Shown here one piece after another: positions 1,586 through 55,191 of a stretch of 57,366 bases of DNA. Made by a program: the position numbers and the translations under genes. The notes beneath the pieces were generated by a model. The model was not told the origin of the DNA and made no database searches. It saw nothing but the letters and a program-made list of their open reading frames with translations. Position 1 is the first letter of the stretch; the number at the start of each line of letters is the position of its first letter. The stretch comes from Coniferiporia sulphurascens (taxonomy: Eukaryota > Basidiomycota > Agaricomycetes > Hymenochaetales > Hymenochaetaceae), in contig NBBA01000030.1 in assembly GCA_002794785.1 (NCBI GenBank), positions 1 to 57,366 of the forward strand. The letters are read 5' to 3'.

Positions 1586-4444
1586 GAAAGGAGAAGTTTA
1601 ATCTTGAGTACCTGCGCATGTCTGGTGTGCAGGATGTGGCGGGTGCGAGGAAACGCAGGAAACGCCACAAGGACTTGAAGATTCCTGGCCGGTTGAAGCC
1701 CGCAGATGCAAATCGCCCAGAACAGCTCGTGTCGATTCGTTTAGAGTTTGAAGTCGAGCATCACAAGTACCACAACATGTTCGTATGGAACTTGAATGGT
1801 GAGAGGGATTTTTTTCTGAGTTTCTTTTATTCACGTTGTCTAACCTGTTGATGTGTTAGATCCTATTGTCACCGCAGAAGCGTTTGCGCAGCTAGTTATT
1901 GATGACTACAGACTGTCCTCGAGCTATCATTCAACAAACACGAAAGCTATCCAGGAGCAGCTGAGCAACTACAAGGCTCACACTGCAACTTTTGCAGACC
2001 CCTCGACAGGTAACCCAGAAGGTGCACTGACGTGTAGCAGATTTCAGGACGCCGAAGCAACGTGGTGGAAAACCTGGAGACGACGCTTACGCAAGGGTAA
2101 TGGATTTGTCCACACACACACGCTATTTCAAAGTGTGCAGGAGCCGCCAGAACGTGCAAAGAAGCGCCGCAAGAGCAACCCAGAAGCGAGCGTCATCGTG
2201 GAAAAGGCTCCTGTCGACGAAGACTCATCGATGGACATCGGGATGTTCAAAGTGAATGAGGACATGATGCATGAGGAGATGCGGATAGTTATCAAGGTGG
2301 GTCAACTTTATTATGTGTTGCGCTCCGTAACTACGCAATGCTTACTAGTTGATATTATCAGCTCGATATAACTGTGGGCGAGATGAAGTTAGATGATCAA
2401 TTTGAGTGGGATATTGAAAATGAAGATTCGTCGCCAGAACAATTTGTGGAGGTTTATAGCAGTGATCTTGGCCTCGCTGGAGAATTTAAGTGAGTGGCAC
2501 AGCACTGATCGCTGACGGCATAACATCCTAATTGATTTTACAGAACGACCATCGCACACTCAATACGGGAGCAAGTCAATGCCTACCAGAAGTCGCTCTT
2601 CTTGGTCGGACACCCATCTGACGGCTCGGCGGTGCAAGATGACGATTTGCACATGTCCTTCTTGCTATCGATCGCTCCTGTGTCTCGGTCTGTCGATCAA
2701 ACGCAGTTGTTCCAGCTGATCATCAATTATCTGAGCGATGGAAAACTCGACAGGCTTGATAAAGAACGTGAAAAGGAAGCTAATAAACGACGGAAACGTA
2801 ATACATGTGGATGTTGCGGAATTGCTTTACCTGATCATGAGCCACTCAAGGTGCATCGTACTCCGGCCATTGGGTTCCCCAAGATCGATCCGTCTATGCT
2901 TGCTCTTGCTGCAGCCGCACCGGCTGCACCGACGTCGCGTTGGGCGGCTGCGGCAGTGGCGTCTCTCACTATCGCGAATATGGTCGCTTCAGAGAACGGC
3001 ACGGCGATAATCCAGCCTGTTTCGAGCATGCCGGCGGCACCTGCAGTTCCGTTGTCAGAGATCCCGAAGGCGAAAGGCTCTTTCAAGGCACCAAAGTACC
3101 CTTTGTCCGTGTTGACTGCTCACGCAAATGTCACCACACCGATGCCATCGACTGTGGTGGATGTGGCAACATACGAGCCCCCGTTGGAGGGCGATCTTCC
3201 GTTACCAGTGTCACTAACGTCGTCTACAGCTGCGCTGGATTCAAAAGCGGCGAAGGTTGTCTCGGCCCGTCGGCAGAGAGAGCTCGAGAAAGAAACCAAA
3301 GAGCGTGAGTGTGCAGATGGGCAGCACACGAACATAATCGATGGTGTCTGGCATTGTTCCAACTGTGGCTGTCCCGACAGTATCGCTATCGGTAGACGAA
3401 AGGGTCCGCTGGGTGACAGGTCGCAGTGCGGCACCCATGGTACGGATTATATATTTCCCTTGTGGTTGACGAAATTCTGATGATGATTTCTTAGGCAAAT
3501 TTTGGCATCGCCATCGTCGTCCACGTCCGGTGGAGTATAGTACTGATGTGGAATATCATACCAACCTCAAGATGGAGGCCAAGCGCGCTAAAGCCAGCGC
3601 GAAAAAGCGGGGTGGCGCTGCAGCAATGTGTGCGCTCAATTTACAGCAGGATGCAGCTCCGGCCCCTGTCTCCCCTACAGACGGCACATCTTCGCCGGCT
3701 GTGCCGAAGCATGAGGTGTGGGTTGAGATCAAGGCAGCGAAGAAGACACGGCCACCATCACCGGCATCGGAGGCATTTGAGCTTCTTGAATGTCCACTGT
3801 CGCCGGCCTCTAGCGTCAGTTCAGGTGCATCAGAGCGTCCACTTGCACAGGCGGTGCTGCAAGGTAGTGGTGCCAGTGGAAGCAGACCTGTGTCTTCTGC
3901 TACTACCCCGGCCAGGGCGGCAGCTGAGTTACCAGTGCAGGCAGAGGCCTCGGCATCAGCGCCAACACCCAGAGAGTCGGCACAGTCCGAACCCCCGTCG
4001 GCGTCCATAGCGTCCGCTACTCCTGCACCTGAAGCAACGCCCGTCCAGGAAACACTACCTCCCCACTTTAGTGAGTATATATATAATTATATCACGCATT
4101 GTATGGTGTTCTCACGGAACCGCAGCGGCCCCAGTGGCATAAAGGTGTAATTGCTGAAATGCAATCCCGCTATCCCGAAGATCGCTTTGATATAATCCTG
4201 CGCAGGGCGGCCAACGGCTTCCCATCAGAGTGGCGTGTGAGGTGCCTTGATTGTCCTGGAAAGGTGTGTTTATCTTCACCTGCTGCCGGTTGCTGTGAAT
4301 GGCATGTTGACTGTTTAGCAATCGGCGTTGGCACAGGTATATACTCCAGGTCCTGGCGAGTCGCTCATAAACTTCGAGGTGCACCTTAAAAATCGCCAGC
4401 ATCGTGCAAAGGTGCAAATGCGATTACAAGGTGCGCCCCCGTGA
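1575..4444 (+). CDS. SNF5: SNF5/SMARCB1-family remodeller subunit with GATA zinc finger (5'-truncated)
   Basis: Core subunit of SWI/SNF-type (or RSC, as Sfh1) nucleosome remodellers. The first SNF5 repeat begins near 1730 (PEQLVSIRLEFEVEHHKYH, then DPIVTAEAFAQLVIDDY). The second is ITVGEMKLDDQFEWDIENED...SDLGLAGEFKTTIAHSIREQ, followed by LFLVGHPSDGSAVQDDDL. A basic/alanine-rich linker leads to a GATA-type finger (CSNCGC...RKGPLGDRSQCGTH, then GKFWHRHRRPRPVEY). A Ser/Pro/Ala-rich region and a last domain CLDCPGKVYTPGPGESLINF with two His follow. Introns supported by protein continuity: 1799-1859, 2297-2361, 2490-2543, 3440-3494 and 4264-4336. The intron from 4071 (acceptor near 4126) also looks real, but the next exon needs one extra C in a C-run at about 4130 to stay in frame. 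The fourth finger ligand is His instead of Cys. The N-terminal region is absent because VPS35 sequence abuts it. Stop at 4442-4444. It may be a truncated duplicate. Confidence 0.72.
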
Positions 4445-5973: not shown

Positions 5974-6533
5974 TGTTACAATTTTCCTTTACTTTTCTCT
6001 TACTGCGCTGACTCACTTCCTCTTTGTCATCATCAGTCAGTGCAACTCCCCCATTTCTCTGCCTTACTCATCCTTATTTGCCTTGCCCCATAAGATGCCA
6101 TGATGACGCCTTCTTGCACCATCATGATGTGCTTTGCTTACTGATCACCGTACTTGTATTACCAAGGCATTCCTTGAGTTTCCATGACCTTCCATAGGCT
6201 GGTAAACACACCTAACCAAGTTGCTACAGTAGCAAACACATAGAGTAGCATATAAGCATGTAACTTCAGTAGCACAAGCCCTAAGCTTGTGCTCTTTGTT
6301 CATACAAGCCCATTATCTGCTACCACCAGTCTACTGTGCACCACTTGGCCATTAGTCGCTTCGTCGTAACCCGACCCCGCTAAGAAGCATCTCACATCCA
6401 CATCGCCGATCAGGAAGCCCCATCGACGATCACCTTCGACTTACGACATCTAGGAAGCCCCGTTGCCGTAACCATCAGTCCCGACGATCAGGAAGCCCCG
6501 ACGTTGATCACCGCATAACCATTGAGCTTAACA
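5974..6533 (+). mobile_element. Solo LTR 1, no matching target duplication
   Basis: The element starts TGTTACAATTTTCC and ends TTGAGCTTAACA, with 5'-TG...CA-3' ends and a TATAAGC box mid-element. It is ~560 bp and nearly identical to five other copies here. Its flanks (AAGAGG left, CCATC right) do not match, and the LINE positions on the two sides are not contiguous. This suggests it formed by recombination between two LTRs. Strand follows the TATA-like box and is uncertain. Confidence 0.85.
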
Positions 6534-7015
6534 CCATCAGCAAATTGGACAGAAAGAAGAGGTCTGATGCGACAGGCAGGTGGGTGCGGAGGCGGTGCAC
6601 AGCCCAGCCAGGAGTGGTGGCGAGAGAGAATATTTCCGCATCCATTGCAGTGGCACAGGTGGGGGAGGCTAGGCGGCAGGACCGGAGTCTGGTGAGGCCG
6701 TGCATAGCGGGGCCTAGAGCTGATGGAAGCCATCTGACATGAAATAGAAGCTATGTCAGTAGTCAGGCGCTTGACTGCATCTGTCAGTGCCCTCATTTCT
6801 GGGGTCACGGGGGCGGTGCCAGGGGTCCCGGTGGTGGCCGGGGCCCTTTGGGGGGGTGAGCTGGTGCAAAGGGTTCTGGGAGGGCGATTTCCACCCCCTC
6901 CCTTGTGAAGTTGTAGGCCATCACCATGTTGCGGTAGATGATGAGTTGGGGGTCTTTCCTTTCTTGTGCGATGTTGGCCAGCATTGTCTGGATGTTCCAC
7001 AGGAGATCGCCTATG

Positions 7016-8261
7016 CCTTCTTGTCCTCTTACCACCACCATCTCAGTTCTGCAACTGGGGTCAGCTGGGGGAAAGTCGCAGCTACCTGACCTTGTCTGGA
7101 CTCTCTGGGACTGGGCATCATACGAGAGAAGGTTCCGACTCACCCTGGTGCGCTGGGGTTGGTTGTCGGTCGCCGTAATGCGGTGGGGAATGGGCGCGGA
7201 GCTCGCCGGTGGTCTTGGCAACCCATCGAAAACGTTGCTACTGGTCGGATTCTCAGTGAGCTTGCATCCTTCTGGCGTCTGCGCTGTCCTCTCGGGGTGG
7301 CATGCTCGTTGGGCCTGCATTGTATGTGGGCTCGGCGGGGGGGACACAATGTTAACGTCCTCACAGGGGGGGGGGAAACCCCCTGCCTCACAGTGGGTGA
7401 CTTCAGTCGAGAGATCTCGGTTCGGGGCAACTCGGATCGCACCTTCGGGTGCTGAGCAATGCCCCTCTGGGTACCTTGGGGCCTGCATTGTCCCTGGCAT
7501 GACAAATCAAAAACTGCCCCCCCAAATTCCCAAAAGGGTCTCTGATGACGGCACTTCATGCTAAAAGGAGATAGGGGGCTCATAACACATGGCATGGTGG
7601 TAAGAACCACCCGATGCTGAAAAGCGACAGGGCACCATGGGCCTCTTGGGTGGGTTGGACCCTCTTGAGGTGGTTAGTATCCCTTACTCCCTGGGACGGC
7701 TTTGCCACCGGGGTCAGGTATGCGAGATGGAGATCCTGGTATGATCGTGGATCCAGAAGCAGGGGCTGGGGGTTGACTGGGCACTTGTCCCATGACCTCG
7801 GTTCCTGAGTATTTCGGCTGTAATGGCTGTTTCTGAAGCATGTGCCAGGGCACGGGAAAGGGCCATCATGGAGTGTGTGTCGGATCATCGGTGCACTGAA
7901 GTGATGTGTCTCGGGCTGTAGCGCTGTGGGAGAGTTGCCTGCAGTGGCTCCAGAGGACTAAATCCTCCGTTGGTCCATGTGGGGGTAATTCCCACTGTGG
8001 GCTTAAGTTGATTCCCTTAAACGAAGTGGCGCTTCACATCACCAAGCGGGTATGGGGAGGCATGAGTCCAGGCGGCTGGGGGTGGTGGGGTAGTGCCTAC
8101 AGCGCCATGACCCTCACACTACACCCTTGGTGTGTTGGGTAGCTCTAATCCTACCTTTAGGCCTGTGCAGCATGAAGGACAGTGGGAGGGGTTTGGTTGC
8201 CCCATATCCTGAGGAAGGTGCATGCATATGTTGAGCCCTGCAAAGGCGCTCTTAATTTTGG
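7016..8261 (+). mobile_element. X module of chimera X1 (WEIRD-like 5' partner)
   Basis: A 1.25 kb module that begins CCTTCTTGTCCTCTTACC and ends GCGCTCTTAATTTTGG. The same module recurs at 32055-34172 (interrupted) and, diverged, at 42313-40996 on the minus strand. There is no RT, transposase or terminal inverted repeat, and open frames are short. A G-run/AAA/C-run hairpin sits near 7365-7385. It is joined at 8262 to LINE 3' UTR. The target duplication GGAGATCGCCTATG (7002-7015 and 8407-8420) encloses X plus the LINE tail, so the two moved together. A 78-codon open frame at 7906-8142 recurs in the other copies; whether it is translated is unknown. Confidence 0.8.
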
Positions 8262-8406
8262 TCAGCACCCTCCTGGGAGCAGGGCCCCTGCCCAGTTTTG
8301 TGCGATGCGCAATGATGGGCACCTCCATTGTTATGTAGTTAGGGCCCCCCCCAAAGGGGGGGGCAGCTTGTAATTATGTAATACTGCAGGAATAAGAAAA
8401 AAAAAA
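8262..8406 (+). mobile_element. LINE 3' UTR end of chimera X1
   Basis: Only the last ~145 bp of the LINE (the end of the first hairpin, the C-run/G-run hairpin and ATACTGCAGGAATAA plus an A tail). It begins exactly at the X 3' end and stops at the second copy of the 14 bp target duplication. Confidence 0.85.
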
Positions 8407-9081
8407 GGAGATCGCCTATGAACTGTGCTGCCTTTATGTCGATTTCGGTGACAGTGGCATCCATGGTTGCTTTGTCAAAGTTGTCCAGGGTGCAGGAGAG
8501 GGTGTGCATGAAACCCGCAGTATGGGGTTCATGCTGTTGTTGGGCGGGGGGTCCTCTCGGGGTGAGAGGCGACATGGCGGCAGAGGAGCGCTTCCGCCCG
8601 AGGCTTGCACCTCCCACCTGTTGCAGGGGGGTATGGGGGTCAACCGCCATTTCTGGGGCCGTTTCACTGAATTTGTTGGAGCTGTGGATCGACCCTACCG
8701 AGGCTGCTGGGGAGCCGGCTCGGGATGCCTGCCTTGACTCCATGCACGGTTGAGTGGTGAAGTCGTATGCTGACACCAGTTGGGAGTCGCCAATGGCTGG
8801 GGAGGGGGCAAGGACGTCTGGTGAGGATGTTGGGGCCTGGAGCGGGTTGTTGGTGGGGGTGGAGGGGGCCGTTCCATAACGGGTGGTGGCGGTGGCTCCC
8901 ACGGCCACCCAGTTGGCAGCGGCTCTGGCAGCCCAATCGGCAGCATCGCTGGCTGAGGAGGGATGTGGGGGGGGGTTGTCGAGTATGATGTAGAGCATTC
9001 CAGTAGTCACTAGGGTTTGACATGGGGGAGTTTTAGCTGCCCGCACTAGTTGATGGTGGTGGTTACTGGTCAAGAAGGATG

Positions 9082-11251: not shown

Positions 11252-11620
11252 CATCCTTCTTGTCCTCTTACCACCACCATCTTGGTTTTGCAACTGGGGT
11301 CAGCAGGGGGAAGTCGCAGCTACCTGACCTTGTCTGGACTCTCTGGGACTGGGCATCATACTAGAGAAGGTTCCGACTCACCCTGGTGTGCTGGGGTTGG
11401 TTGTTGGTTGCTGTAATGCGGTGGGGAACAGGCATGGAGCTTGCTGGCGGTCTTGGCAACCTGTCGAAAATGTTGCTACTGGTCGGATTCTCAGTGAGCT
11501 TGCATCCTTCTGGCATCTGCACTGCTCTCTTGGGGTGGCGCACTCATTGGGCCTGCATTGTATGTGGGCTCGGCAGGGGGGGACACGATGTTAACGTCCT
11601 CACAGGGGGGGGGGGGGGGG
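11252..11620 (+). mobile_element. 5' fragment of X module
   Basis: First ~370 bp of X (CATCCTTCTTGTCCTC onward), closely matching 7016-7370 and 32055-32410. It ends in a run of at least 14 G where intact X has a G-run/AAA/C-run hairpin. About 14 bp resembling minus-strand LINE sequence (GAGGCGCCTTTGA) follow before the LE 5' end. Confidence 0.8.
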
Positions 11621-31753: not shown

Positions 31754-32054
31754 GTCCTCACCCCAACTGTTGGCATTTGTGCCGAAAATCAGAAATCCGT
31801 GATGGCCCTGACAAAGACATCCCATGAGTTTTTCGCCTCCCTCCCCACCGCAGACCAAGTCCCAGTCCTTTCCTCTGCATTAAATGTGAAGGGCAATATC
31901 ATGACCACATTTGCGGCACGCCCATCCTCGGCTAACCCGACCATGGAAATGATCATTGATCATCACTCTGCAGCCTATGCCACCCATATGTGCACAGAGT
32001 GCATCACGGCAGGGATTACTATCCCCACTGCCTTCTCCCTAACCCCTTCCAGAG

Positions 32055-34691
32055 CATCCCTTCTTGTCCTCTTACCACCACCATCTCGGTTTTGCGACTG
32101 GGGTCGGCTGGAGGAAGTCGCAGCTACCCGACCTTGTCTGGACTCTCTGGGACTGGGCATTGTATGAGAGAAGGTTCTGACTCACCCTGGTGTGCTGGGG
32201 TTGGTTGTTGGTCACTGTAATGCAGTGGGAAACAGGCATGGAGCTCGCCAGCGGTCTTGGCAACCCATCGAAAACGTTGCTACTGGTTGGATTCTTGATG
32301 AGCTTGCATCCTTCTGGCGTCTGCGCTGTCCTCTTGGGGTGGTGTGCTCATTGGGCCTGCATTGTATGTGGGCTCGGCAGGGGGGGGACACGACGTTAAT
32401 GTCCTCACAGGGGGGGGGGAAACCCCCTGCCTCGCAGCAGGCGACTTTGGTCAGGAGATCTCGGTTTGGGGCAACTCGGATCGCACCCTTGGGTGCTGAG
32501 CAATGCCCACCTGGGTACCTCGGGGCCCGCATTGTCCCTGGCATGACAAATCAAAAACTGCCCCCCCAAATTCCCAAAAGGGTCTCTGATGATGGCACTT
32601 CGTGCTAAAAGGAGATAGGGGGCTCATAACACATGGCATGGCGGTAAGAACCACCTGATGCCGAAAGGCGACAGGGCACCATGGGCCGGAAGCTGCTCAC
32701 ACAGTCGGTCGACCACCCATGCCACAAACTCTCTGCAGTTGCCCAGGTCCTCTGCTGTGCTGGTCCCTATGGGGGATACTGGTTGAGCTTTGACTCAGCC
32801 TACCAGCACCGGCATGGCTTGATCTCGCACTGCAGGTGGCACAACCACCCCCCCTGGCCAGCCCAGTCGACCGCCCATGTCTTAGGTGGGTGTCATACAT
32901 TCTGACCCTGGATCCGCAAGGTCTGGCCCCCCCATGACCCCCTCCCGACCCACCACACTGAGTGGGCCGACGAAAACCGTCTCCAGGTTCTGCGCCACTG
33001 GTTGAAGCTGATGGGACACCTGAATCGCCTCTCTGACTGTACCTCCGCCACCATCCGCCTGGCCTTTGCCATGATGGAACTGGAGGGACACCTGACTGAC
33101 AAAGATATGGACTTGGACCTCCTTAGGGAATATATGAGTTGTATGCTTGGACCCTGAACCCTGGACCCGGACCCGGCTCTCTTGGAGCTTTCAGGTGCGC
33201 TTCCTCCCTTTTCCTCTGTCTAGTGTCTGCCTTTCGGACTCCCCACCATATGTCTCGGCCGGTGCTCTCGCCCTCCCTTTCCTATTCTAAACTACTTCCT
33301 TTGCCTGCCTTTGCCTGCTTGGTAGAGTCGTAGTGATATGTATTCCTCCCTCCTTCCTTCTCTTTACTAATAGGGGCCCTCCACACCTTGGCACCCTTCG
33401 GGGAGCAAGGCCCCGCCCAGTTTTGTGCATTGCATGATGACAGGCGCCTCCGTTGTTATGTAGTTAGGGCCCCCCCTTTGGGGGGGCAGCTTGTAATTAT
33501 GTAATACTGCAGGAATAATAAAATAAAATAAAAATAAAAAGGGCACCATAGGCCTCTTGGGTGGGTTGGACCCTCTTGAGGTGGTTAGTATCCCTTACTC
33601 CCTGGGATGGCTTTGCCACCAGGGTCGGGTATGTGAGACGGAGATCCTGGTATGATCACGGATCCAGAAGCAGGGGCTGGGGGTTGACTGGGTGCTTGTC
33701 CCATGACCTCAGTTCCTGAGTATTCCGGCTGTAATGGCTGTTTCTGAAGCACATGCCAGGGCACAGGAAAGGGCCATCATGGAGTGTGTGTCGGATCATC
33801 GGCGCGCTGAAGTGGTGTGTCTCGGGCCGTAGCGCTGTGGGAGAGTTGCCTGCAGTGGCTCCAGAGGACTAAATCCTCTGTCAGTCCACATGGGGGTAAT
33901 TCCCACTGTGGGCTTAAGTTGATTCCCTTAAACGAAGTGGCGCTTCACATCACCAAGTGGGTATGGGGAGGCGTGAGTCCAGGCGGCTGGGGGTGGTGGG
34001 GTAGTGCCTACAGTGCTGCGACCCTCACACTACACCCTTGGTGCGTCGGGTAGCTCTAATCCTACCTTTAGGCCTGTGCGGCATGAAGGACAGCAGGAGG
34101 GGTCTGGTCACCCCATATCCCGAGGAAGGTGCACGTGTATGTTGAGCCCTGCAAGGGCGCTCTTAATTTTGGCCTCTCAGACCGTACCGCGGGCACCATC
34201 CGGCTGTCCTTTGCCACGATGGACCTAGATGGCCACCCAACTGACGAAGACATGGACCTGGACCTCCTACAGGAATACATGCATCATATGCTCGGACCCT
34301 GAACCCAGGACTCGGACCCAGCCCTTTTGGAGCTAGCAGGTATGCTCCCCCCATTTCCTCCGGATTTGCGCCCACCTTTCGGATTCCCACAAGATATGTC
34401 TCGGCTGGCACTCTCGCCTCCCCTTTCTCACTTCTAAGCTTCTTACTTTGCCTGCCCTCACCCGCTTGGTTTTTTTGTAGCGATATGTATCCCTCCTTCT
34501 CGTGTCTTCCTTATGCAATAGGGGCTCTTCACACATTGGCACCCTTTGGGGAGCAGAGCCCCCACCCAGTTTTGTGTGATGCGCAATGATGGGCACCTCT
34601 GTTGTTATGTAGTTAGGGCCCCCCCTTTGGGGGGGCAGCTTGTAATTATGTAATACTGCAGGAATAATAAAATAAAATAAAAAATAAAAAA
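32055..34691 (+). mobile_element. Chimera X2: X module fused to LINE 3' end
   Basis: X occupies 32055-32687 and 33541-34172 (split by LM). It begins CATCCCTTCTTGTCC and ends TTAATTTTGG, and is fused at 34173 to LINE from the ORF2 C-terminus (LSDRTAGTIRLSFATMDLD) through the 3' UTR to a tail at 34691. The 13 bp duplication ACCCCTTCCAGAG (32042-32054 and 34692-34704) encloses the whole unit, proving one insertion event. The LINE share is ~520 bp against ~145 bp in X1. Confidence 0.87.
32688..33540 (+). mobile_element. LINE copy LM: 5'-truncated, nested in X of chimera X2
   Basis: Carries the end of ORF2 (SVDHPCHKLSAVAQVL, GPYGGYWLSFDSAY, HCRWHNHPPWPAQSTAH), the 3' UTR and an AAATAAAATAAAAATAAAAA-like tail. 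It is flanked by the 14 bp duplication GGGCACCATRGGCC (32674-32687 and 33541-33554, one G/A difference). Confidence 0.9.
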
Positions 34692-36066
34692 ACCCCTTCC
34701 AGAGTCCACCCCTGGTCCACCCTCTGCATCTCTATGGTGCCCTGCAAGGACTTCCTCTTTGGCCAGAATGGACACATCATCACCGAGAAGGCCCTCATGG
34801 CTGAAATCTGGCACAACCCAGCACTCCACAACCTCAACTTTGTAGTCACCCCACACTTCGCCGCCACTGAGGATCACCTGCCAACACTCAACAGGTGCCC
34901 AGTGGTCTTCTCCTTTGTCAACCCCAATGGCTTCATCTGCGAGCATCTCCTCAAGAGGCCCCGCATCTGGATGTTCGGATCCACCCTCCGTCTCTCGGTC
35001 CCACCTGTATGCCCCACCCTCACCCAGTGTGAGTGGTGCCAAGGCCTCAGACACGGAACCAAGGGCTGCCGAGCCCAACTTTGCTGCGCTGATTGCGCAG
35101 GTGCCCATCTGACCCGCAATCACCGCAAATCGTGTGCCCACTGCACCACTGACGCAGTGCCTGAAGGCGACACATGCCCCCACCCCTGCCTCTGCATCAA
35201 TTGCAAGGGCGACCACCCCTCCACCCTGCCGGCATGCCCTAAGAAGAGGCGTTACCACCAAATTGAAGAGGCCCTCGCCACCGACCCCACTGACGACCAG
35301 ATGGAGGAAATATGATAGAGACACTCTCTATCATGCAGTGGAATGCCACCCGCTCACTAGGCACAACCACCCACCATGGCCAGTGCAGATGACTGCCCAC
35401 ATACTAGGTGGGTGCACCACATTCCGACCCTAGATTCGGCGCATGTGGCCAGCCAAAACCCCCCTCCCAGTCCATCACTCAGAATGGGCTGAGGAGAACC
35501 TTATTCCGGTTCTGCGCCACTGGCTTAGGCTAACAGGGCACTTGAACTGCCTTTCGGACAGAACCGCAGGTACCATCCGCCTGGCCTTTGCTGCAATGGA
35601 ACTAGACAGCCACCCTACTGATGAGGACATGGACTTGGACCTCCTGCGGGACTACATGTGTTGTATGCTCAGACCTCATACCCAGGACTCGGACCCAGCT
35701 CTCTTGGAGCTCTCAGGTATGCTCCCACCCTTTCTCTCTGATCTGTGACCGCCCTTCGGACTCCTAATCATATGTCTCGGCTGGTGCTCTCACCTCCCCT
35801 TTCTCCATTCTAAGCTACCTCTTTTGCCTGCCCTCGCCCGCTTGTTATTGACGTAGTGATATGTATTCCTCCCTCATTACTTTTCTTATACTAATAGGGG
35901 CCCTCCACACTTTGGCACCCTTTGGGGAGCAGGGCCCCCACCCAGTTTTGTGCGCTGTGCGATGACAGGTGCCTCTGTTGTTATGTAGTTAGGGCCTCCC
36001 CTTTGGGGGGGCAGCTTGTAATTATGTAATACTGCAGGAATAATTTTTTTTTTAAAAAAAAAAAAA

Positions 36067-39027: not shown

Positions 39028-39740
39028 GTCCGCTCTGTCTTAGCATGGGGCACTCCAGTCTGGTATCATGGCCGCCACCAAAAAACCCTGGTAAACTGCC
39101 TCCAGTCTGTGCAAAACATGGCCTGTCAGTGGATACTGGGCGTCTATAAAGGCGCCTCCCCTTTCTCAACAAATTTCCTATGCTCAGTCCCTCCCCTTTC
39201 TTTTCACTTTGAATATTTAAAAACATCCCATTCTCTGCACCTCTGGCAAACCCCCCACTCTATTGGCCGCAAGCGTTTTCATAATGTAACTAATAGACCT
39301 TTTTCCCTTTCTCTGCAGGTCCGAGTCCCCTGGGTACAACCAGTCCCTGCATACACACATCCCCCATGGACGGATCCACTGGCCTTTATGGGTGGATGGG
39401 TCACCTTCACCCTCCCCTCCCTCCCGGTCACAGGTGACACACACGATGAGTTTGTACAAGCTGCCCTAGACCCCAGCACCACCCCCCACCTCCAGGTCTT
39501 CACCAATGGCTCGCACATTGGGACCGCCTCGGGATCCGCCATCCGTGCCATGTGCGGCCTCACCAAATTACGGTCTCGCCAACTTGCCTCCCCCACCTGT
39601 GCTACAGCCACGGACACGGAGATCTTCTCTCTCGCCACCGCTCCCAGATGGGCCACACACCGCCTCCGCACCCACCTGCCTGTCGCATCGGACATTTTCT
39701 TTCTGTCCAATTCACTGATGGCACTCAACCTTTTCCACAG

Positions 39741-42313
39741 TTTTTATTTTTTTATTATTTTTTAAATTATTCCTGCAGTATTACATAATTAACAGCTGCC
39801 CCCCCAAAGGGGGGGCCCTAACTACATAACAACAGAGGCGCCCATCATTGCGCATCGCACAAAACTGGGTGGAGGCTCTGCTCCCAAATGGGTGCCAAAG
39901 TGTGGAGAGCCCCTATTGAGTGAGACAAAAGAACAGTAGAAGGAGGAATACATATCGCTACGAACTAACCAAGCAGACGAGGGCAGGTAAAGTAGGAAGC
40001 TTAGAATTGAGAAAGGGATGGCGAGAGCACCGGCTGAGATGTATTCAGAGGAATTTGAAAGGCAGGCTTCAAATGGAAAGAAAAGGGGGAGTCGTACCTG
40101 ATAGCTCCAAGAGGGCCGGGTCCGAGTCCTGGGTTCTGGGTCCGAGCATACAACGCATGTATTCCTGTAGGAGGTCCAGGTCCATGTCTTCATTGGTAGG
40201 GTGTCCGTCTAGATCCATCGCGGCAAATGAGAGCCTGATGGCGCCTGCGGCATGGTCAGAGAGGCGGTTTAGGTGCCCTGTTAGTGTTACAATTTTCCTT
40301 TACTTTTCCCTTACTGCGCTGACTCATTTCCTCTTCATCATCATCAGTCAGCGCAACTCCCCCATTTCTCTGCCTTACTCATCCTTATTCGCCTTACACC
40401 ATAAGACGCCATGATGACGCCTTATTACACCATCATGACGTGCTTTGCTTACTGACCACCATACTTGTATTACCAAGGCTTTCCTTGAGTTTCCATGACC
40501 TTCCATAGTCTGGTAAACACACCTAACCAAGTTGCTACAGTAGCAAACACATAGAGTAGCATATAAGCATGTAACTTCAGTAGCACAAGCCCTAAGCTTG
40601 TGCTCTTTGTTCATACAAGCCCATTATCTGCTACCACCAGTCTACTGTGCGCCGTTGTGCCCTCAGTCACTTCATCATAACCCGATTCACTCCAAGAAGC
40701 CTACCGCATCCACATCGCCGATCAGGAAGCCCCATCGCCGATCACCTTCGACTTACGACATCTAGGAAGCCCCGTTGCCGTACCATCAGTCCCGACGATC
40801 AGGAAGCCCCGACGTCGATCACCGTGTAACCGTTGAGCTTAACAGTTAGCTTAAGCCAGCGGCACAAAACCGGGAGGCGGTGTTTGTCAGCCCACTCAGA
40901 GTGGTGGACTGGGAGAGGGTCCCGAGGTGGCCATACACGTCATATCCACAAGTGGAAGGTGCTGCAGCCGCCAAGGATGTGGGCGGTCAACTGTACCAGA
41001 ATTAAAGGGCGCCCTTGCAGGACCCCACTACACATGCACCTTCCTCATGACATAGATGCCTGACCAGTAGGACTTATACCCAACACGCTGTCCTCTACGG
41101 TGCGCTGGATTGGGAAGGGCATGCCATGCCAGGGAGACATTCCGAGTGGGGGTCGCAGCGCCGTAGGCACTACCCCACCCATTGGGTGCCCCCCCTACCC
41201 TACACATTCCCCCCCTTACCCTGCTTTCCATTGTAGAGTGCTGCTCATTTCTGGGAATCAACTTAAGCACGCAATAGGACTTACTCCTATGTGCACCCAC
41301 ACCAGATTTAGTGCTCTGGAGCCAGTGGAGGGAACTATCCCCCACCGCTACAGCTCACTCCATAATGGAGGGGTTTCCTAGGCCCCCCTGGAGTTTCCTG
41401 TTCCCCAGCACACACTTCAGAGCCCCGAAGGGGAATACTCAGGCACAAGGCCCACTTCTGGATCCGCAATGTACCGAAGTTGACGTGTTGCCCTCGCTTG
41501 GACCCCAGCGCTTGTTACAGCCGCCAGGGAGTCCGCTCAGACTAACCACCTCTCGAGGGGTACCAGCGTCCTTCCCACTTCGATGGGAGAGGGCCAGCTA
41601 CCAGGGACTTCCCGTGATTGCTAGGTGAGCCCCAGCATTATCCCCCCAAGAGGCCCATGGTGGCCTGTCGCTTTCACGTCGGCTGGTTCTTACCACAACA
41701 CCATGTGTTAAGAAGCCCCTATCTCCTTATATCAACTAGTGATGTCATCAGAGACCCTTTCAGGATCTGGGGCGGCAGTTTTTATGGTTTGTCATGCCAG
41801 AGACAATGCGGCCCCAGGATTTTAAGTCCCGACCCGAAGGTCAGATCCAAGTCTCCCCGAACCCGAGGTCTCCCGACCAAAGCCGACTACTGAAGGGCAG
41901 AGGGTTACCCCCCCGCATGGGTGTGGGGATGTTAACATTGTGTCCCCCCCCAACTGGCAGGCATGTGCCCCTTGCGCTGCCGAGAGGCAGACCAGCGAGC
42001 ACGCCATCCTCGAGAAGGTCAGCGCAGACATGAGAGAGGATCATCCTCACCGAGTCTCCCCCCCCAAGAGGACGTTAACGACGGGTCCTCGTGCCAGCCG
42101 GCGAACGCAAGCGCCCGTCTCCTGCCATCCAATGACGCCACTACAGCGCCTCGGCGACCGGCCAGCTGCCCTCCCTATAAGGGTGGGCAGTCGGAGAGCC
42201 TTCTCTCATGTAGCCCCAGTAGTATACCAGAGCGAGACACGGGTTGCTGCGACTGATCAGAGATGACCCCAGAGCAAAGGTGAGATGGTGGTGGTAAGAG
42301 GACAAGAAGGATG
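39741..42313 (-). mobile_element. Chimera X3 (minus): X module fused to LINE 3' end
   Basis: On the minus strand X runs from 42313 (CATCCTTCTTGTCCTC) to 40996 (TTTAATTCTGG), 1318 bp. It is fused to LINE ORF2 C-terminus (40995-40845), then solo LTR6, then the rest of ORF2 and 3' UTR to the tail at 39741. The 13 bp duplication ACCTTTTCCACAG (39728-39740 and 42314-42326) encloses the unit. This X is diverged from X1/X2 but collinear (shared GCTTAAGTTGATTCCC and GGGTGGGGTAGTGCCTAC), so at least two X subfamilies exist. The minus frame 41345-41028 resembles the 78-codon frame of X1. Confidence 0.86.
40285..40844 (+). mobile_element. Solo LTR 6 with 5 bp duplication GTTAG
   Basis: TGTTACAATTTTCC to TTGAGCTTAACA, 560 bp. 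GTTAG flanks both sides (40280-40284 and 40845-40849). It sits in the LINE portion of chimera X3, so it arrived after that chimera formed. Confidence 0.93.
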
Positions 42314-43499
42314 ACCTTTTCCACAGTTGGGCTGCCGTTCCTGGCGCCCACCTCCTCCACCTCTGGAAGGCGGGGGTCGAGACGCTACTGGACTCGCACC
42401 CAGGCCTCACCATTCACTTTGTGTGGTGTCCAGGTCATTCAGACATTCCCGGGAACGAATGGGCTGACGAAGAAGCGAAACTGGCCATGGAGCTCCCCCC
42501 CTTGCAACTTGTGCCCTCCATCTCCGCCCTCAAGGAGGTGGCCACCAAGACCATGGTCGAAAGGTGGACACTATCACTGGCCCACCCTCTAGCCTCCACC
42601 ACCAACAAATACCTGGTAGTGCACGGCATCCCCTCACGCCACCCACGGAAATTGCTCACCCACTCCACGGACCACCCCCGCCACCACCTGTCTGCAGTCG
42701 CACAAGTCCTCTGCCACACTGGTCCCTACGGGGGCTACTGGCTGAGCTTCGACTCAACCTACCAGCACAGGCATGGCCTGATCTCCCACTGCAGATGGCA
42801 CAACCACCCCCCATGGCCAGCACAAACGACTGCCCATATATTAGGAGGGTGCACTACATTCCGACCCTGGATCTGGCATGTTTGGCCAGCCAAGATCCCC
42901 CTCCCAGTTCACCACTCAGAATGGGCTGAGGAGAACCATATCCTGGTCCTGCGCTGCTGGCTTAGGCTGACAAGGCACTTAAACCGCCTCTCTGACAGAA
43001 CCGCAGGTACCATCCACCTGGCTTTTGCCGCAATGGAACTAGATGGCCACCCCACTGATGAGAACATGGACCTAGACCTCCTTTGGGACTACATGCACCA
43101 TATGCTCGGACCTCATACCCAGGACTCGGACCCGGCTCTTTTGGAGCTTTCAGGTGCACTTCCACCCTTTCTCTCTGATTTGTGACCGCCTTTCAGACTC
43201 CTAATTGTATGTCTCGGCCAGTGCTCCCACCCTCCCTTTCTCCATTTTAAGCTACCTCCTTTGCCTGCCCTCACCCACTTGGTATTGCCATAGTGATATG
43301 TATTCCTCCCTCTTCTTGTGACATGTACTAATAGGGGCCCTTCGCACTTCGGCACCCTTTGGGGAGCAGGGCCCCCGCCCAGTTTTGTGTGCTGTGCAAT
43401 GACGGGTGCCTCTATTGTTATGTAGTTAGGGCCCCCCTTTGGGGGGGCAGCTTGTAATTATGTAATACTGCAGGAATAATAATAATAAATTTAAAAAAA

Positions 43500-48794: not shown

Positions 48795-49112
48795 TTTTTT
48801 TATTTTATTTTATTTTATTATTCCTGCAGTATTACATAATTACAAGCTGCCCCCCGAAGGGGGGGCCCTAACTACATAACAATGGAGGTGCCCATCATCG
48901 CGCAATGCATGAAACTAGGTGGGGGCCCTGCTCTCCGAAGGGTGCCAAGGTGTGAAGGGCCCCTATTAGTACAGAGCCAGAAGAAGAGGGAGGAATACAT
49001 ATCACTACGACAATACCAAACAGACTAGGGCAGGCAAAGGAGGTAGCTTAGAATGGGGAAAGGGAGGGTGAGAGCACCAGCCGAGACATACAATTTGGAG
49101 TTTGAAGGGCAG

Positions 49113-52100
49113 TCACAAATCAGAGAGAGAAGGTGGAAGCGCACCTGAAAGCTCCAAAAGAGCCGGGTCTGAGTCCTGGGTATGGGGTCCGAGCATACGC
49201 TGCATGTAGTCCCTAAGGAGGTCCAGGTCCATATCCTCGTTGGTGGGGTGGCTGTCTAGTTCCATCGCAGCGAAGGCCAAGCAGATGGCACCCGAGGTCC
49301 TGTTGGATAGGTGGTTCAGATGCCCCATCAGCCTAAGCCAGCGGCGCAGAACTGGGATAAGGTTTTCCTCTGCCCATTCTAAGTGATGGGCTAGGAGGGG
49401 GGTTTTGGCTGGCCAGATGCGCCGAATCCAGGGTCGGAAGGTATTGCACCCACCGAGAATGTGGGCAGTCATCTGCGCAGGCCATGGTGGATGGTTGTGC
49501 CACCTGCAGTGGGAAATCAGGCCGTGCCTATGCCAGTAGGTTGAGTTGAAGCTCAGCCAGTAGCCCCTGTAGGGACTGGTGCGGCAGAGGACTTGTGCCA
49601 CTGCAGAGAGGTGATGGCGGGGGTGGTCTGCAGAGTGCGTGAGGAGCTTCTGCAGGCGACAAGAGGGGATGCTGTGTACTGCCAAATATTTGTTGGCGGT
49701 GGAGGCGAGGGGGCAGGCTAGGGACAGTGTCCATCATTCGACAAGCATCTTGGTGGCCACCTCTTTTAGTGCGGATATGGAGGGTGCAAGTTGCGAGGGG
49801 GGGAGCTCCATGGCGAGTTTCGCTTTGTCATCAGCCCATTCATTCCTGGGGACATCCGAATGACCTGGACACCATACAAAATGGATGGTGAGACCTGGAT
49901 GTGAGTCCAGAAGCATCTCGACCCCAGCCTTCCAAAGGTGAAGGAGGTGGGCGCCTGGTATGGTGGCCCAGCTGTGGAAAAGGTTGAGTGTTGTCAGCGA
50001 GTTGGACAGGAAGAATAAGTCCGATGCGATAGGCAGGTGGGTGCAGAGGCGGTGTGTGGCCCAGCCTGGAGCGGTGGTGAGAGAGAAAATTTCTGCATCC
50101 GTGGCCATGGCGCAGGTGGGGGAGGCAAGTCAGCGGGACTGTATTTTGGTGAGGCCGCACATAGCACAGATGGCAGATCCCAAGGCGGTTCCAATGTGGG
50201 AGCCATTGGTGAAGACCTGGAGGTGTGGGGTGGTGCTGAGGTCTAGGGTGGCTTTTATGAACTCGTTGCATGTGTCACTTGTGACCAGGAGGGAGGGGAG
50301 GGTGAAGTTGACCCACCCCCCTGTAGAGGCCAGAGGATCCGTCCAGGGGGGATGCGTGTATGCAGGGACCGGTTGTACCTGGGGGACTTGGACCTGCAGA
50401 GAAAGGGAAAAAGGTCTATTAGTTACATTTCGAAAGCACTTGTGGCCAATAGAGTGAGGGGTGTGCCATAGGCGCAGGGAGTGGGTCGTTTTTAAATACT
50501 CAAAGTAAAAAGAGAGGGGAGGGACTGAGCATAGGAAATTAGTGGAGAATGGGGAGGCACCCTTGTAGATGCCTAGGATCCACCAGCAGGCCGTGTTTTG
50601 CACAGCCTGGAGTCGGTTGATCAGGGTTTTTTGGCGGTGGCCATGGTACCAGACAGGGGCGCCCCATGCTAAGACAGAGCAGATGCAGCTGGTGTATAAT
50701 CGCCAGAGGAGGAGGGCCAATACTCTGTGTTCGGTGTTGCCTAGGATGTGGAGGGCGGCAAGGGTGGAGAGTCCCTTGGAGCACATTCGCTCGACATGGG
50801 GCTTAAAGGTTAGGCCTGGGTCCCACCAGATCCCGAGCCACCGCAGTGGACGGGAGGGTCGGATGAGGGTGTTAGGGTCGATTTGTATCCCGGCGGTGTC
50901 CCAGCCATGATAGCCGACTCTGCGCCGAGGTGGGTGGAAGTGGAGTGCCTCTGTTTTGGTGGCCTTGATGTTGAGGCCGATGTCACCAAAGAGGCTGTCG
51001 AGTTGGTGATATGCATCTGCCAGGTGGCAGCAGTTGGATGCTACTGAGGGGCCAACACATATTAGTAGATGGTCATCAATGTATGCCAGCACCGTGGTGC
51101 CAGCTTGGTGGAAGCACCAGAGGACCATGCCCATGAAAATTGTTGATAGGATGGGGGAGACGGGCAATCCTTGAGGGGTGCCGAAGTCGGGTTTCGGGGC
51201 AGTTGGGAGGGTGGTGCCATCGAAGGCAACTGTGACCTGCCTATCCATCATGAAAGAGAGACACCAATCCACCATGTTGGGCAGGCACTGGAGCTCCAAC
51301 AGTTGCCGGTGAAGGAGGTGGGGGTGTACTGAGTCAAAGAAGCCCTGAATGTCAACTGCTAGGACCGAACACACCAGGCCCTTCATGTGGGCATTCTCCG
51401 CTATCTGTAGAAGGTGTTGGGCAGCGTCATAGACTGAGTGTCCTTGACGCCCCTCATACTGGTTAGGTGGCAGCCAGTCCCACTTGTTGGCGAGGAACTG
51501 GAGCTGGTTAGCTATGATCTTTTCGAGGAGTTTCCCTAAGGTCTCCTTGAGGGTGATGGGCCGGTATGAGCATGGCGAGAAGGGGTCCTTCTCATTTGGC
51601 TTCCTGAGCATTACAACTTTTGCCACCCACCAGCACTCAGGGTGGTGCCCCAAGCACAGACAGTTGTTGAAGAGTGTAAGTATCTCATCGGGGTAGGCAT
51701 CGACCACCCATTTCAGGGGGCGATAGCCTATTCCCAAGAGGCCCAGAGCTGACAAATTGGAGGTATCGGTCAGTGTCCCTGTAAGCTTGGCGAGGAGGAT
51801 CAGCAGGGCAGCTGATTGGGGGGGTGGTGGTGGGTTTTGGATCACTGGGATGGGGGGGGAGGCATGAAGAAAGTTTCACAGAATAGCTCACCTTTCTCAT
51901 TGTCTGACTGGGTGAAGGTGCCATCTCGTTGTTTGAGGGACGGGATGGGTGTGGGGCAGTTGCCGAGGCCCCTTTTGGCCCAGGTCCAGATGTTGGAGGC
52001 ATCCGCTTCGGCCGCCTGATCGGCATAGAACTGCCGCTTGGCCGTGCGCACTCCTCGTTTGAAGGCGCAGCGCATGGATGCTCATTGGAGGGGGGTGGTA

Positions 52101-53112
52101 GCTGTCGAGATGGCAGTCAGCAGGGTTTTGCATGTTGATGTCCACCATGGGACCTCTGTTTTTGACAGTTTTGAGAGGCAGGTAAATGGCTTGAGGGCCA
52201 CCACCATGGCTGACACCACAGCGTCGGCCTTGTTGTCCAGGGTGAGGGTGTCATTGGCCAGGAGGGCGAAGGCAAGGTCTAGTAGAGGGAAGGCAATGTC
52301 GGTCCACTCCTCCTTGTCGGCTAGTAGAAGCTGGCGGGTCTTGAGGACCGGAGGTGGGAGCCAAAAGGGAATTGACCAGTGCAGAATAGTGTGGTCTGAC
52401 AGTGGGGAGAGGTTGGAGGTGGCCAAGTCCAGGATGGCATCAGGGTTGATGGAGGGGGGGGCCCAAATCATGTCTATGGGGCACCTCAGGTGGTTGCCAT
52501 CAGGCCTGGAGTCAGAGTCAGGTAAATGGGCAGGTGCTAGGCCATGCCCACGGAAAAAGTCGTTGAGGGGTTGTGCCCTCAATTCCTCTGGCCATGAGGT
52601 GGGGTGTTCGGACCATGTGGGGTGACGATGGTTGAAGTCGCCCACCACAAGGAGGGTGGTGGCTAGTGCCGAGGGGAGCGAAAAGAGGAATAACTCACCT
52701 GGGTACTGCAGGGGGGCCCTGGCTCGGTCTGGGGGGGACATGCCATAGTAGTTGCACACCTGGACTGTGAGGGGGGATCGGATTTCCACAGTGAGGATGT
52801 CGGTGCCATGAGAGGCGGTTCCAAGTACTGACCATGAAGTTGGGGGGAGAGAGCGTGCCACATAGGTGACTACCCGGGGCCAGGAGTCGGGGGTAGGACC
52901 GGTGTGTAGCCTGGGATGTTGGGGACGTTGAGCACTGGTATACCAGTGGGGTTGGTGAGGGATGGTTGCAAGCCGATTTGGTACCAGGGAGGTTCCTGGA
53001 TAAGAATTAGGTGTGGTGGGGAAGGGGTGTCAGTAAGGAGCGGGATCAGGGAATTTATCGCCACTAGTGAGTGGGCGGTGTTCCACTGCATGACAGAGAT
53101 GTCTCCAATCAT
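49113..53112 (-). pseudogene. LINE ORF2 of LT (endonuclease-RT-RNase H)
   Basis: About 1,330 codons from MIGDISVMQWNTAHS (53112) to LSGALPPSLSDL (49113). Order: APE-like endonuclease (LILIQEPPWYQIGLQPS, VVGDFNHRHPTWSEH, CPIDMIWAPP, SDHTILHWSIPF); RT with motif A LAVDIQGFFDSVHP, motif B GTPQGLPVSPILS and motif C AYIDDHLLICVG; RNase H (VFTNGSHIGTALGSAIC, DAEIFSLTTAPGW, CPGHSDVPRNEWADDK); terminal module CRWHNHPPWPAQMTAHILGGC. The RT to RNase H N-terminus (51845-50130) is a 571-codon unbroken frame, the longest in the LINE. Defects: frame changes near 52.87 and 51.84 kb, and TGA stops near 50.13 and 49.74 kb at positions that are CGA elsewhere. The overall order endonuclease-RT-RNase H with CCHC ORF1 is typical of Tad1/I-type LINEs. 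Confidence 0.87.
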
Positions 53113-55132
53113 GATTCCTCCATTTGTTCGAAGGTGGGTTCGTCCTCAATGGCCTCCAGGATTTGGTGGTATCGCTTCTTCTTGGGGCAGGACAGGAGGG
53201 TGGTGGGGTGGTCACCTTTGCAGTTGGTGCAGTGGCGAGGGTGAGGACATGGGTCGGCTTCTGCCACAGTGTTAGTGGCGCAGTGGACGCAGTTCTTGCA
53301 GTGGTTGTGGGTAAGGTGATTACCCCCACAGTTGGCGCAGCAGGCTTGGGTGTGGCACCCCTTGGTCCCATGTCCGAGGCCTTGGCAGTGCTCACATTGG
53401 GTGAGGCTGGGGTGAATGGGAGGGACGGAGAGGTGGAGGGAGGATCTGAAGAGCCAGACCCATGGGCGCTTAAGGAGGCGCTTGCGAATAGACCTGTCAG
53501 GGTTGATGAAGGAGAAGGCAACCGGGCACTTACTCAGGGAGGGTAGGTGTTTGGGGGTTGCAGCGAAGTGGGGGGTGATGATGAAATCCAGGGGGCGGAG
53601 TGTCGGGTTGTTGGTGACTTCCACCAGGAGGACGGCTTTGGAGATGGTGTGTTTGTTCTGGCCGAAGTGGTAGTCCTTGCAGGGAACCATTGAAATCCAC
53701 AGGGAGGACCTAGGCTGAATGTGGGAGGGGGTCAGTTGGAATGCCTCAGGGGCCTCAGCCCCTTTGGTAGTGCACCTGTTGTGCATGTGGTGCAAGAACG
53801 CTTCCATGTGCCGGTCGATGATCGTGGCTATGGAAGGGTTAGCCGAGTGGGGTCGCTGCATGAACGTGGTCACAAGGTTTCCCTTCACGTTAAATGAAGC
53901 GGAAAGGACCGTGACTTGGTCTGCAGTGGGGAGGGAGGCAAAGAAATCACATGCTATTTTTGTGAGAACCATGGCGGGTTTTTGGAGGTGTGCCGAGAGG
54001 CCGGTGACCAGTGAAAGGACCAGTGTTGGGTCCTTGGCGTACATTGTGGGGGGTGGGGGCACCTGCCGCATGTGCTTCTTCTTCTTTTTCTGCACCGGGT
54101 TGATGACCGCCCCTGCGGCAGGTGCCACTGGGGTGGGGTTGGTGGATGTTGGGGTGGCTGCTGCTGCTGCCACCTGTGTGTAGGAGGTGGGGGCGGCTTG
54201 AATTGTAGCCTGGGGGGTGGGCTGTAGCTGTTGCTGCTGCTGTTGATGGGGGCAGGCCTAGAGCTGAGAGAGGACATCTGCCTGGAAATAGAAGCCACAT
54301 CAGTAGTCAGACGCTTGACCGCATCAGTCAGTGCCTTCATCTTTGGGGTCATGGGGGCGGTGCCAGGGGTCCGGGCGGTAACCGGGGGCCTTTCCTGGGG
54401 GCGAGCTGGCTGGAAGGGGTATGGGAGGTCGAAACCTCCCTCCCCCATGTGCTGGTAGGCAATGATCGCATCGAACATTGCCCGTGTTGGGTGGAGATTG
54501 TCCTTCCTGGCCCTGTGAAGGGCATCGAGTGCCTTGAGCGAGATGTAGGCCGTCTGCCCCAGGAGTTGCGCTGCTGCTTGTTCATGGCTTTTGCCGGGAG
54601 CAGTGTTGGCCATAGCTTCGAAGTAGCCGGAGCACAGGTCAGTGATGGTGTCCAGGAATCCATCCAGTGGGCTGCATGCCATGCTTGGGCGGGGGCGAGG
54701 GGTCTGTGGCGACAGGACCATTGCGTCCCGCTTTTGTGAGGCAGCTGGTGAGGGTGTCCGGTATGGGGGGTCTGAGTTCGGGAGGTAATCTTCTTTGTTT
54801 CCAGCATCATACTTGTGTGGCTCGACAATGTTGGAGGCAGCAGACTGGGGACAGCTGCTAAACTGTTCAAACATGGCTGTGAAGGCCGCGTTCGAGACAC
54901 CAGTAGCGGGGGAGGGGGCGAGGTGGAGGGTGTCTGGCGACGATTCCGGGGCGGGGGTCTGGGCGCTGGGCTGGGCATAGGGTATGGGGGTCGTTTTGCA
55001 TTGAGCAGTGATGAGAGCTTCGGCGGCTAGGTTGGCGGCTGTCTCGGCAGCCCTTGCAGTGGCTAGGCTCACCAATGAGGACAAGGGGACAGTAGGTCTT
55101 GTGTGATGAAGGGCACCACGATAATCTGACAT
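53109..55132 (-). pseudogene. LINE ORF1 of LT
   Basis: Start ATG 55132 (MSDYRGALHHTR), 59 nt inside the element. The frame is open to about 54.0 kb, then a frame change leads to the rest (54173-53109). The middle differs strongly from LG (YFEAMANTAPGKSHEQAAAQLLGQTAYISLKAL) while the C-terminal half is conserved: basic KKKKKHMRQ, FASLPTADQVTVLSASFNVK, then the knuckles CEHCQGLGHGTKGC, CANCGGNHLTHNHCKNC and CTNCKGDHPTTLLSC. The stop overlaps the ORF2 start (53109-53112). The divergent N-terminal half marks LT as a separate subfamily. Confidence 0.84.
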
Positions 55133-55191
55133 GGGGGAGTTTTAGCTGCCTGCACTAGTGAGATGATGGTGGTTACTGGTCAAGAAGGATG

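Follow-up and report, generated by a model that had tools for sequence, protein, structure and literature searches.

A noncoding module fused to LINE 3' segments at variable junctions in Coniferiporia sulphurascens, a system resembling the MINE chimeras of Magnaporthe

SINEs, which are noncoding elements moved by LINE enzymes, borrow the 3' end of a LINE. Among the trypanosomatids, the pairs ingi/RIME and L1Tc/NARTc share a 5' end, and the short elements of trypanosomes also carry the 3' end of their LINE. The shared 5' sequence of trypanosomatid LINEs and noncoding elements, Pr77, is described as a promoter by experiment (PMC4748587, in the accessible part of the paper). A different type of composite is found in the U6 snRNA-L1 chimeras of mammals, which consist of a small RNA and a 5'-truncated LINE and are ascribed to template switching (PMC4476161, accessible sections). 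Among the closest described systems is MINE of Magnaporthe, in which a module termed WEIRD is fused to a 5'-truncated MGL LINE and for which a template jump was proposed; the accessible text of that report also describes Mg-SINE and cites tests of template switching by human L1 (PMC2104539). Within the open-licence literature, as far as its text was accessible, we noticed no fungal LINE chimera system other than that of Magnaporthe, which is no proof of absence. In the literature searched, MINE has so far been described from one species, and its partner RNA has stayed unexplained.

The current study concerns a second such system, encountered in contig C30 of the C. sulphurascens genome (39.35 Mb in 31 contigs), whose entire 57,366 nucleotides constitute the window analyzed here. 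At 7016-8261 (+), the window contains a noncoding module, termed X1, which has copies genome-wide with constant ends and no kept reading frame. X1 begins with a leader of 29 nt, CCTTCTTGTCCTCTTACCACCACCATCTC (7016-7044, +), identical at 28 of 29 bases to the 5' leader of a LINE and of one group of a further retroposon, Y, and it terminates with TTAATTYTGG (8252-8261, +), the constant end found in its genomic copies. Joined directly to X1 are 144 bp of LINE 3' end with an A-rich tail (8262-8405, +), starting near position 6241 of a 6450-base reference stretch; compared with 39 other scored LINE 3' ends, 8262-8402 is 89-93% identical. Both parts lie within one target duplication. As the preliminary description had claimed, GGAGATCGCCTATG occurs in exact copies at 7002-7015 and 8407-8420, with no third occurrence on the + strand of the window. 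These 14 bp are certain, whereas the duplication would measure 15 bp (7001-7015 and 8406-8420, +, an exact match) if the adjacent A is counted, and that A may belong to the tail. The 5' end of X1 was only partly as expected: the constant leader is present, but X1 is without the CAT that precedes CCTTCTTG in most copies.

Our preferred reading, to which we assign a probability of about 0.8, is that X is a noncoding RNA copied as a passenger of LINE reverse transcription by means of a template jump, and that this applies to every copy whose 3' end was read. The constant X ends, the variable LINE junctions, the same orientation of both parts, the single duplication around each of ten units, and a junction motif are all seen in the sequence, and the first two together with the duplications support the jump from LINE RNA to X RNA that had been proposed initially. 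The switch would take place during reverse transcription and would presuppose a free X RNA with the 3' end seen in the copies, while a chimeric RNA formed before reverse transcription would give identical DNA.

Two further units in the window, X2 and X3, both proved real, and the LINE is joined at a different point in each of the three. X2 (32055-34172, +) is followed by its LINE 3' part (34173-34690, +), and the unit is bounded by AACCCCTTCCAGAG at 32041-32054 and 34691-34704 (+). It is split by a later nested insertion at 32688-33539, a plain 5'-truncated LINE with its own 15-bp duplication (32673-32687 and 33540-33554, one mismatch). X3 (40996-42313, -), with its LINE 3' part at 39743-40995 (-) and its target duplication AACTGTGGAAAAGGT at 39728-39742 and 42314-42328 (-), belongs to an old X lineage that has kept the leader and the 3' end while the body diverged; its identity to X1 is 70% over one 695-base alignment and lower in parts of the full alignment. 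The window also carries an X fragment corresponding to X positions 1-360 (11255-11614, +), and about 20 bp beyond it come a LINE's 5' leader and the start of its ORF1. A LINE copy with a full-length 5' end (48795-55191, -), which served as the coordinate reference for the junctions, starts at 55191 with a diverged form of the leader, followed by about 28 further nt and the ATG of ORF1; its reading frames are interrupted, and no target duplication was found around it. Elsewhere in the window, 2536-3480 (+) holds a Snf5-like reading frame, with four solved relatives named Snf5, the end of which we take to be probably a GATA-type finger. The chaperonin genes of this genome are split into several pieces. 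Both features, the Snf5-like frame above all, hint at a fungal genome, and no light-harvesting protein turned up when one was sought.

When the genome was searched with X1, 289 candidates were returned, of which 40 including X1 itself were scored and fetched together with roughly 2 kb of flank to either side; apart from X1, the main matches show 83-91% identity. All copies share a constant 5' end (CCTTCTTGTCCTCTTACCACCACCATCTC, with CAT or CATC ahead of CCTTCTTG in most copies) and likewise a constant 3' end, for which the genome holds 50 exact copies of GYGCTCTTAATTYTGG and, in a longer form at up to 3 mismatches, 87 copies, with none in the control for either. Many copies with constant ends had been anticipated, and they are evidently there. 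Against 927 LINE 3' ends at up to 3 mismatches of a separate pattern, X ends are roughly 9% as numerous. From the leader interior to the 3' end, X measures 1220-1259 bases in 30 copies and 1308 in X3; nine of the 39 copies were left out of both this count and the tree, eight because no leader was found in the stretch and J6 for its length. The tree of these 30 copies and X3 contains several lineages. Of the 87 ends, 17 are variant forms with GCCCTTAAT or ACCCTTAAT, which we read as additional old lineages, two copies of this kind (X3 and J13) having been followed into LINE sequence. X has both old and young lineages, with the ends kept in all. Small 5' losses occur as well, not only in X1 with its missing CAT: one unit (L023:3243, -), which has its own 15-bp duplication, is missing the first 23 nt of X and starts with the CATCTC that lies within the leader.

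The preliminary description had expected each X+LINE copy to possess its own duplication. This holds for ten distinct units (L011, L014, L015, L020, L023, L042, L054, and X1, X2 and X3 of the window), in which repeats of 13-15 bp lie directly outside X and directly after the A-rich LINE tail, with scores of 11-15 and one mismatch each in L011, L020 and L042; a weak case of 10 bp is seen in L055. For the other leader copies no duplication was found, in part as the sequence retrieved reached only some 1.4-3 kb beyond X, or because of nesting or an interruption of the LINE. The scan from the leader covered 44 copies, 41 of them X-like, and yielded an accepted duplication for nine distinct units, while with reversed flanks 41 copies gave no match and three gave scores of 9-10. 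Forward matches lying inside X or LINE (L037, L047, L049, L050 and L053, scores 9-15) were not counted, the one with a score of 15 being LINE flank against LINE. Scanned from the LINE tail, 21 of 73 tails have a candidate duplication, as opposed to 2 of 73, both weak, in the reversed control. Eight of the 21 candidates are on X units, and about six of the 13 others are credible plain truncated LINEs without X.

The leader is common to X, the LINE and Y over 29-34 nt. Its pattern occurs 376 times in the genome at up to 3 mismatches, all classes taken together, and never in the reversed control. Five LINE 5' ends (L037, L038, L039, L053 and L057) read (CATC)CCTTCTTGACCTCTTACCACYACCATCTC, then about 28 nt, then ATGGCAGATCGG of ORF1. 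X had been described as a non-LINE module, yet it is not entirely foreign to the LINE, since 28 of its first 29 nt match the LINE leader. Each family has its own fixed variant, namely GTCC in X, GACC in the LINE and one Y group, and GATC in the other Y group, which makes a trans-spliced leader placed on all elements less likely. Y is a 985-bp noncoding, dispersed, solo retroposon, located mostly away from LINE zones among the places listed. Over its first 34 nt it matches the leader found in four LINE copies without a difference, and it terminates with an GGCCCCTTCGGGGGCC hairpin of its own and a (CAT)n tail. Its copies fall into the two leader groups (GACC.. and GATC..). Two were read uninterrupted (L077:1-1701 and L078:1-1701), one with a nested insertion (L076:60-2200), and 18 loci (L058-L075) over their first few hundred bases, three of these 18 being the starts of L076-L078. 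Target duplications accompany all three long copies, of 14 bp in L078 (by script), and, by eye, of 13 bp in L076 and 15 bp with one mismatch in L077. The insertion inside the Y copy L076 (604-1817, about 1.2 kb) has the ends TGTTACAATT..AATTGTAACA, and a repeat resembling it, with the pieces TGTTAAGCTCAA.GGTTAC.., is present in L059, L057 and L051. The bodies of X and Y differ, save that a second match, weak but collinear and no longer than 36 bp (E 0.004-1.6), hints at a common ancestry without proving it. Since X shares its leader with both the LINE and Y, it can be placed within the retroposon community of this LINE. Furthermore, as Y has inserted at sites unrelated to each other and retains a complete 5' end there, we infer that the leader is a putative internal promoter, much as Pr77 is in trypanosomatids.

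What kind of RNA X might be is a separate matter. No reading frame is kept across nine X copies, and since their longest open stretches do not lie in a common frame, we reject a protein-coding X. Searches for a known RNA family or ribozyme gave two chance-level matches far below gathering scores at X1 and none in the whole window. Pairing was tested in six X regions, and in four of them the canonical pairs outnumber those of all 300 shuffles (in one example, 0.984 vs a shuffle maximum of 0.949), whereas pairs changed on both sides exceed the shuffles in one region (8 vs 7) and at most equal the maximum in the others. This test of covariation uses related sequences and is thus supportive only, and a separate column-shuffle scan is a crude null; within those terms, the pairing suggests that X is a structured RNA.

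The absence of a frame in those nine copies and the pairing in four of six regions would equally suit an ordinary host noncoding RNA gene, now missing or unrecognized, whose transcript served as an accidental acceptor of the jump, and the authors of the MINE study argue along these lines for WEIRD in the accessible part of their paper (PMC2104539). We nevertheless consider such a gene unlikely. First, the start of X is almost the LINE's own leader. In addition, the 87 X ends sit together on the large contigs, grouped in one stretch per contig with none alone on an arm, although small contigs cannot be judged in this respect. On C1 (4.98 Mb), for instance, they occupy 1.39-1.49 Mb, and on C2 (3.02 Mb) 1.53-1.68 Mb, while the widest stretch, on C12, spans about 0.46 Mb; on C1-C3 the X-end stretches coincide with those of the LINE ends, among the LINE ends listed. 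This grouping speaks against a single host gene elsewhere and for a renewal of X from chimeric copies, though a source copy could still be hidden in an assembly gap or among the small contigs. Lastly, X comprises several lineages, all with their ends kept, and in one of them the alignable part is no more than about 70% alike; this pattern suggests that the sources have changed over time and that X is not a single gene under constraint. As an aside, the crowding of LINE 3' ends and X ends, above all on C1-C3, is what LINE-built centromeres would be expected to show.

The junctions between X and the LINE were read in 41 sequences, namely the window, L057 as a LINE locus and 39 X loci, with L009 omitted as it is the window itself. 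Among these, 39 X 3' ends passed the pattern; it did not pick up the X3 end, for which reading by eye was needed, and that of L051, interrupted by an insertion, was dropped (X is likewise interrupted before its 3' end in L028, L049 and L056). All 39 run on into LINE sequence in the same orientation, and no X without LINE was found among them, roughly half of the 87 counted ends having been read on. The reference LINE aligns within 37 bases of the junction in 37 of the 39, and only from base 146 in J23 and base 311 in J28; these two match stretches in other loci from base 2 and were taken for LINE. L020 (C16) and L021 (C28) carry an identical X insertion with identical flanks, reflecting either a segmental duplication or an assembly overlap, and since they represent one duplicated insertion, the number of distinct junctions is 38. 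The 38 are located at approximately 33 positions, which on the LINE of 6.4 kb range between about 0.1 and 6.24 kb, each accurate to a few bases (J23 and J28 less so). X is therefore fused to LINE segments of differing length, as originally claimed. Position 5592 was used three times and 4576, 5279 and 5878 twice each, while 5468 appears twice only through L020/L021.

Examined in the nearest uninterrupted LINE copies, the LINE context of the 38 junctions follows the pattern CCG|CC, the bar marking the junction, with C at -3 in 26, C at -2 in 29, G at -1 in 24, C at +1 in 30 and C at +2 in 22. G at -1 and C at +1 occur together in 20 of 38. In 5000 random placements nearby, the corresponding means were 8.8 for the G, 13.4 for the C and 2.8 for both, with maxima of 19, 23 and 10; C makes up 36.5% of the reference LINE. 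It is evident that the jumps favor LINE sites of the form CCG|CC. A C likewise follows 38 of the 50 exact X ends genome-wide; 31 of these 50 were already among the 39 read, and the C follows 14 of the 19 that were not. Because X ends in GG, the G at -1 is a possible overlap of one nucleotide, and if the X RNA ended in GGC, the overlap would become GC. In J1, J10 and J13 the LINE follows GG without a C, so a terminal C would not always be present. The preference for G at -1 and C at +1 could also signify pausing rather than pairing with X. Among plain LINE truncations, both bases are found in one and the C at +1 in two, but with n=6 these are too few for the motif to be called a feature of jumps alone.

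A constant X 3' end combined with a LINE-side preference for CCG|CC would also fit an endonuclease plus a ligase, that is, a scenario in which X RNA and a 5'-cleaved LINE RNA are joined as RNA, by ligation or trans-splicing, and then reverse transcribed as a single template. We regard this as improbable for several reasons. The LINE bases preceding the junctions are mostly CG or CA and rarely AG, and template switching by LINE enzymes has other support, at least in the accessible portions of PMC2104539 and PMC4476161. Nor is there a sign of a recurrent joined RNA. Four chimera pairs sharing a LINE position could be compared (J5/J8, J5/J27, J8/J27 and J22/J30; J14/J33 and J36/J38 share positions as well but fall outside this comparison), and in none of the four is the partner the nearest relative of X: identity is 0.887-0.915 within pairs, against 0.921-0.942 between the first-named copy and its best other relative (0.936, 0.921 and 0.942, with a small margin for J8, 0.915 vs 0.921). 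As site-sharing X copies are less alike than they are to other copies, they seem to stem from separate jumps at one site. We also reject an X exon spliced to LINE acceptors, since AG is rare before the junctions and the context is not that of a splice acceptor. Finally, the reuse of some LINE positions might be attributed to one self-copying X+LINE element, or X might be the 5' region of a longer LINE, and the preliminary description had itself named both ideas as objections. The fused element is contradicted by the approximately 33 positions among 38 distinct junctions and by the pair identities just given, and X as a LINE 5' region is not supported, six LINE 5' ends being without X (the five noted above and that of the window LINE); together they are left a negligible chance.

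Returning to the template jump, its course can be pictured as follows. The LINE endonuclease would nick the target, and the enzyme would begin to copy the LINE RNA at its 3' tail. The reverse transcriptase would leave this RNA at a point that varies, with a preference for CCG|CC, continue on an X RNA from its 3' end (..TTAATTYTGG, with C as a possible further base) and copy X to its 5' end. Integration would then close with a target duplication of 13-15 bp, and with the leader presumably acting as internal promoter, the new X copy could be transcribed again. In the 39 copies read, X ends in TTAATTYTGG against the LINE, and neither a tail nor a LINE-like 3' end belongs to X itself. As its start is nearly the short start sequence of the LINE, X has the look of a LINE parasite more than that of a passenger taken along by accident. 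A more specific version of this idea, which we put forward tentatively, is that X may be a noncoding retroposon lineage which has lost any 3' end for starting reverse transcription and multiplies only as a jump acceptor, with the LINE-type leader as its promoter. Each chimeric copy could then give new X RNA, its 3' end would be re-formed at TTYTGG, and the jump would be guided by a GC pairing of 1-2 nt between LINE cDNA and X RNA.

When X+LINE is set beside MINE, as described in the accessible text of PMC2104539, the parallels are extensive. Both consist of a full-length noncoding module of about 1.1-1.25 kb at the 5' side, followed in the same orientation by a 5'-truncated LINE whose length varies, inside duplications of 10-20 bp there and 13-15 bp here (ten units); in both, a few LINE positions are reused and a junction motif is present. 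No solo module is described for MINE, and none was seen among the 39 X ends read here. The likeness to MINE noted at the outset therefore extends to architecture and proposed mechanism, but not to the junction motif, which is GCC|A/U in Magnaporthe and CCG|CC here. Further differences are the 33 bipartite chimeras of MINE as opposed to the 87 X ends counted here, the leader that X shares with its LINE at 28 of 29 bases and that is also found on another retroposon, with none reported for WEIRD in that text, and the microhomology, which according to the same text was not seen there. X+LINE works like MINE, yet owing to the different motif, the greater number of copies, and a shared leader and microhomology unreported for MINE in that text, we do not file it as a member, judged by the published description of MINE. 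The U6 snRNA-L1 chimeras are similar in that an RNA is joined to a 5'-truncated LINE inside one duplication (PMC4476161, accessible sections), but their acceptor is a known host snRNA, whereas X is a module of 1.25 kb with nearly the leader of the LINE. The parallel with Pr77, judged from the accessible part of PMC4748587, is that autonomous and noncoding elements have a conserved short 5' end in common, here the leader; its sequence is another one, its length is 29-34 nt rather than 77, and its promoter function is putative. Unlike the short elements of trypanosomes, X is without a LINE 3' end, and X1 gave no ribozyme match. Like SINEs, X would be a noncoding element moved by LINE enzymes, but in the 39 copies read it acquires the LINE 3' end and tail by fusion only.

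Three points are new here, namely the preference of the jumps for CCG|CC, the shared 5' leader, and the old and young X lineages with kept ends. A second system with another partner, more copies and a clear motif makes the LINE template jump measurable in natural DNA, and the shared leader offers a testable reason why one RNA should be chosen repeatedly. It also suggests a route for parasitizing a LINE that is unlike the 3'-end mimicry of SINEs.
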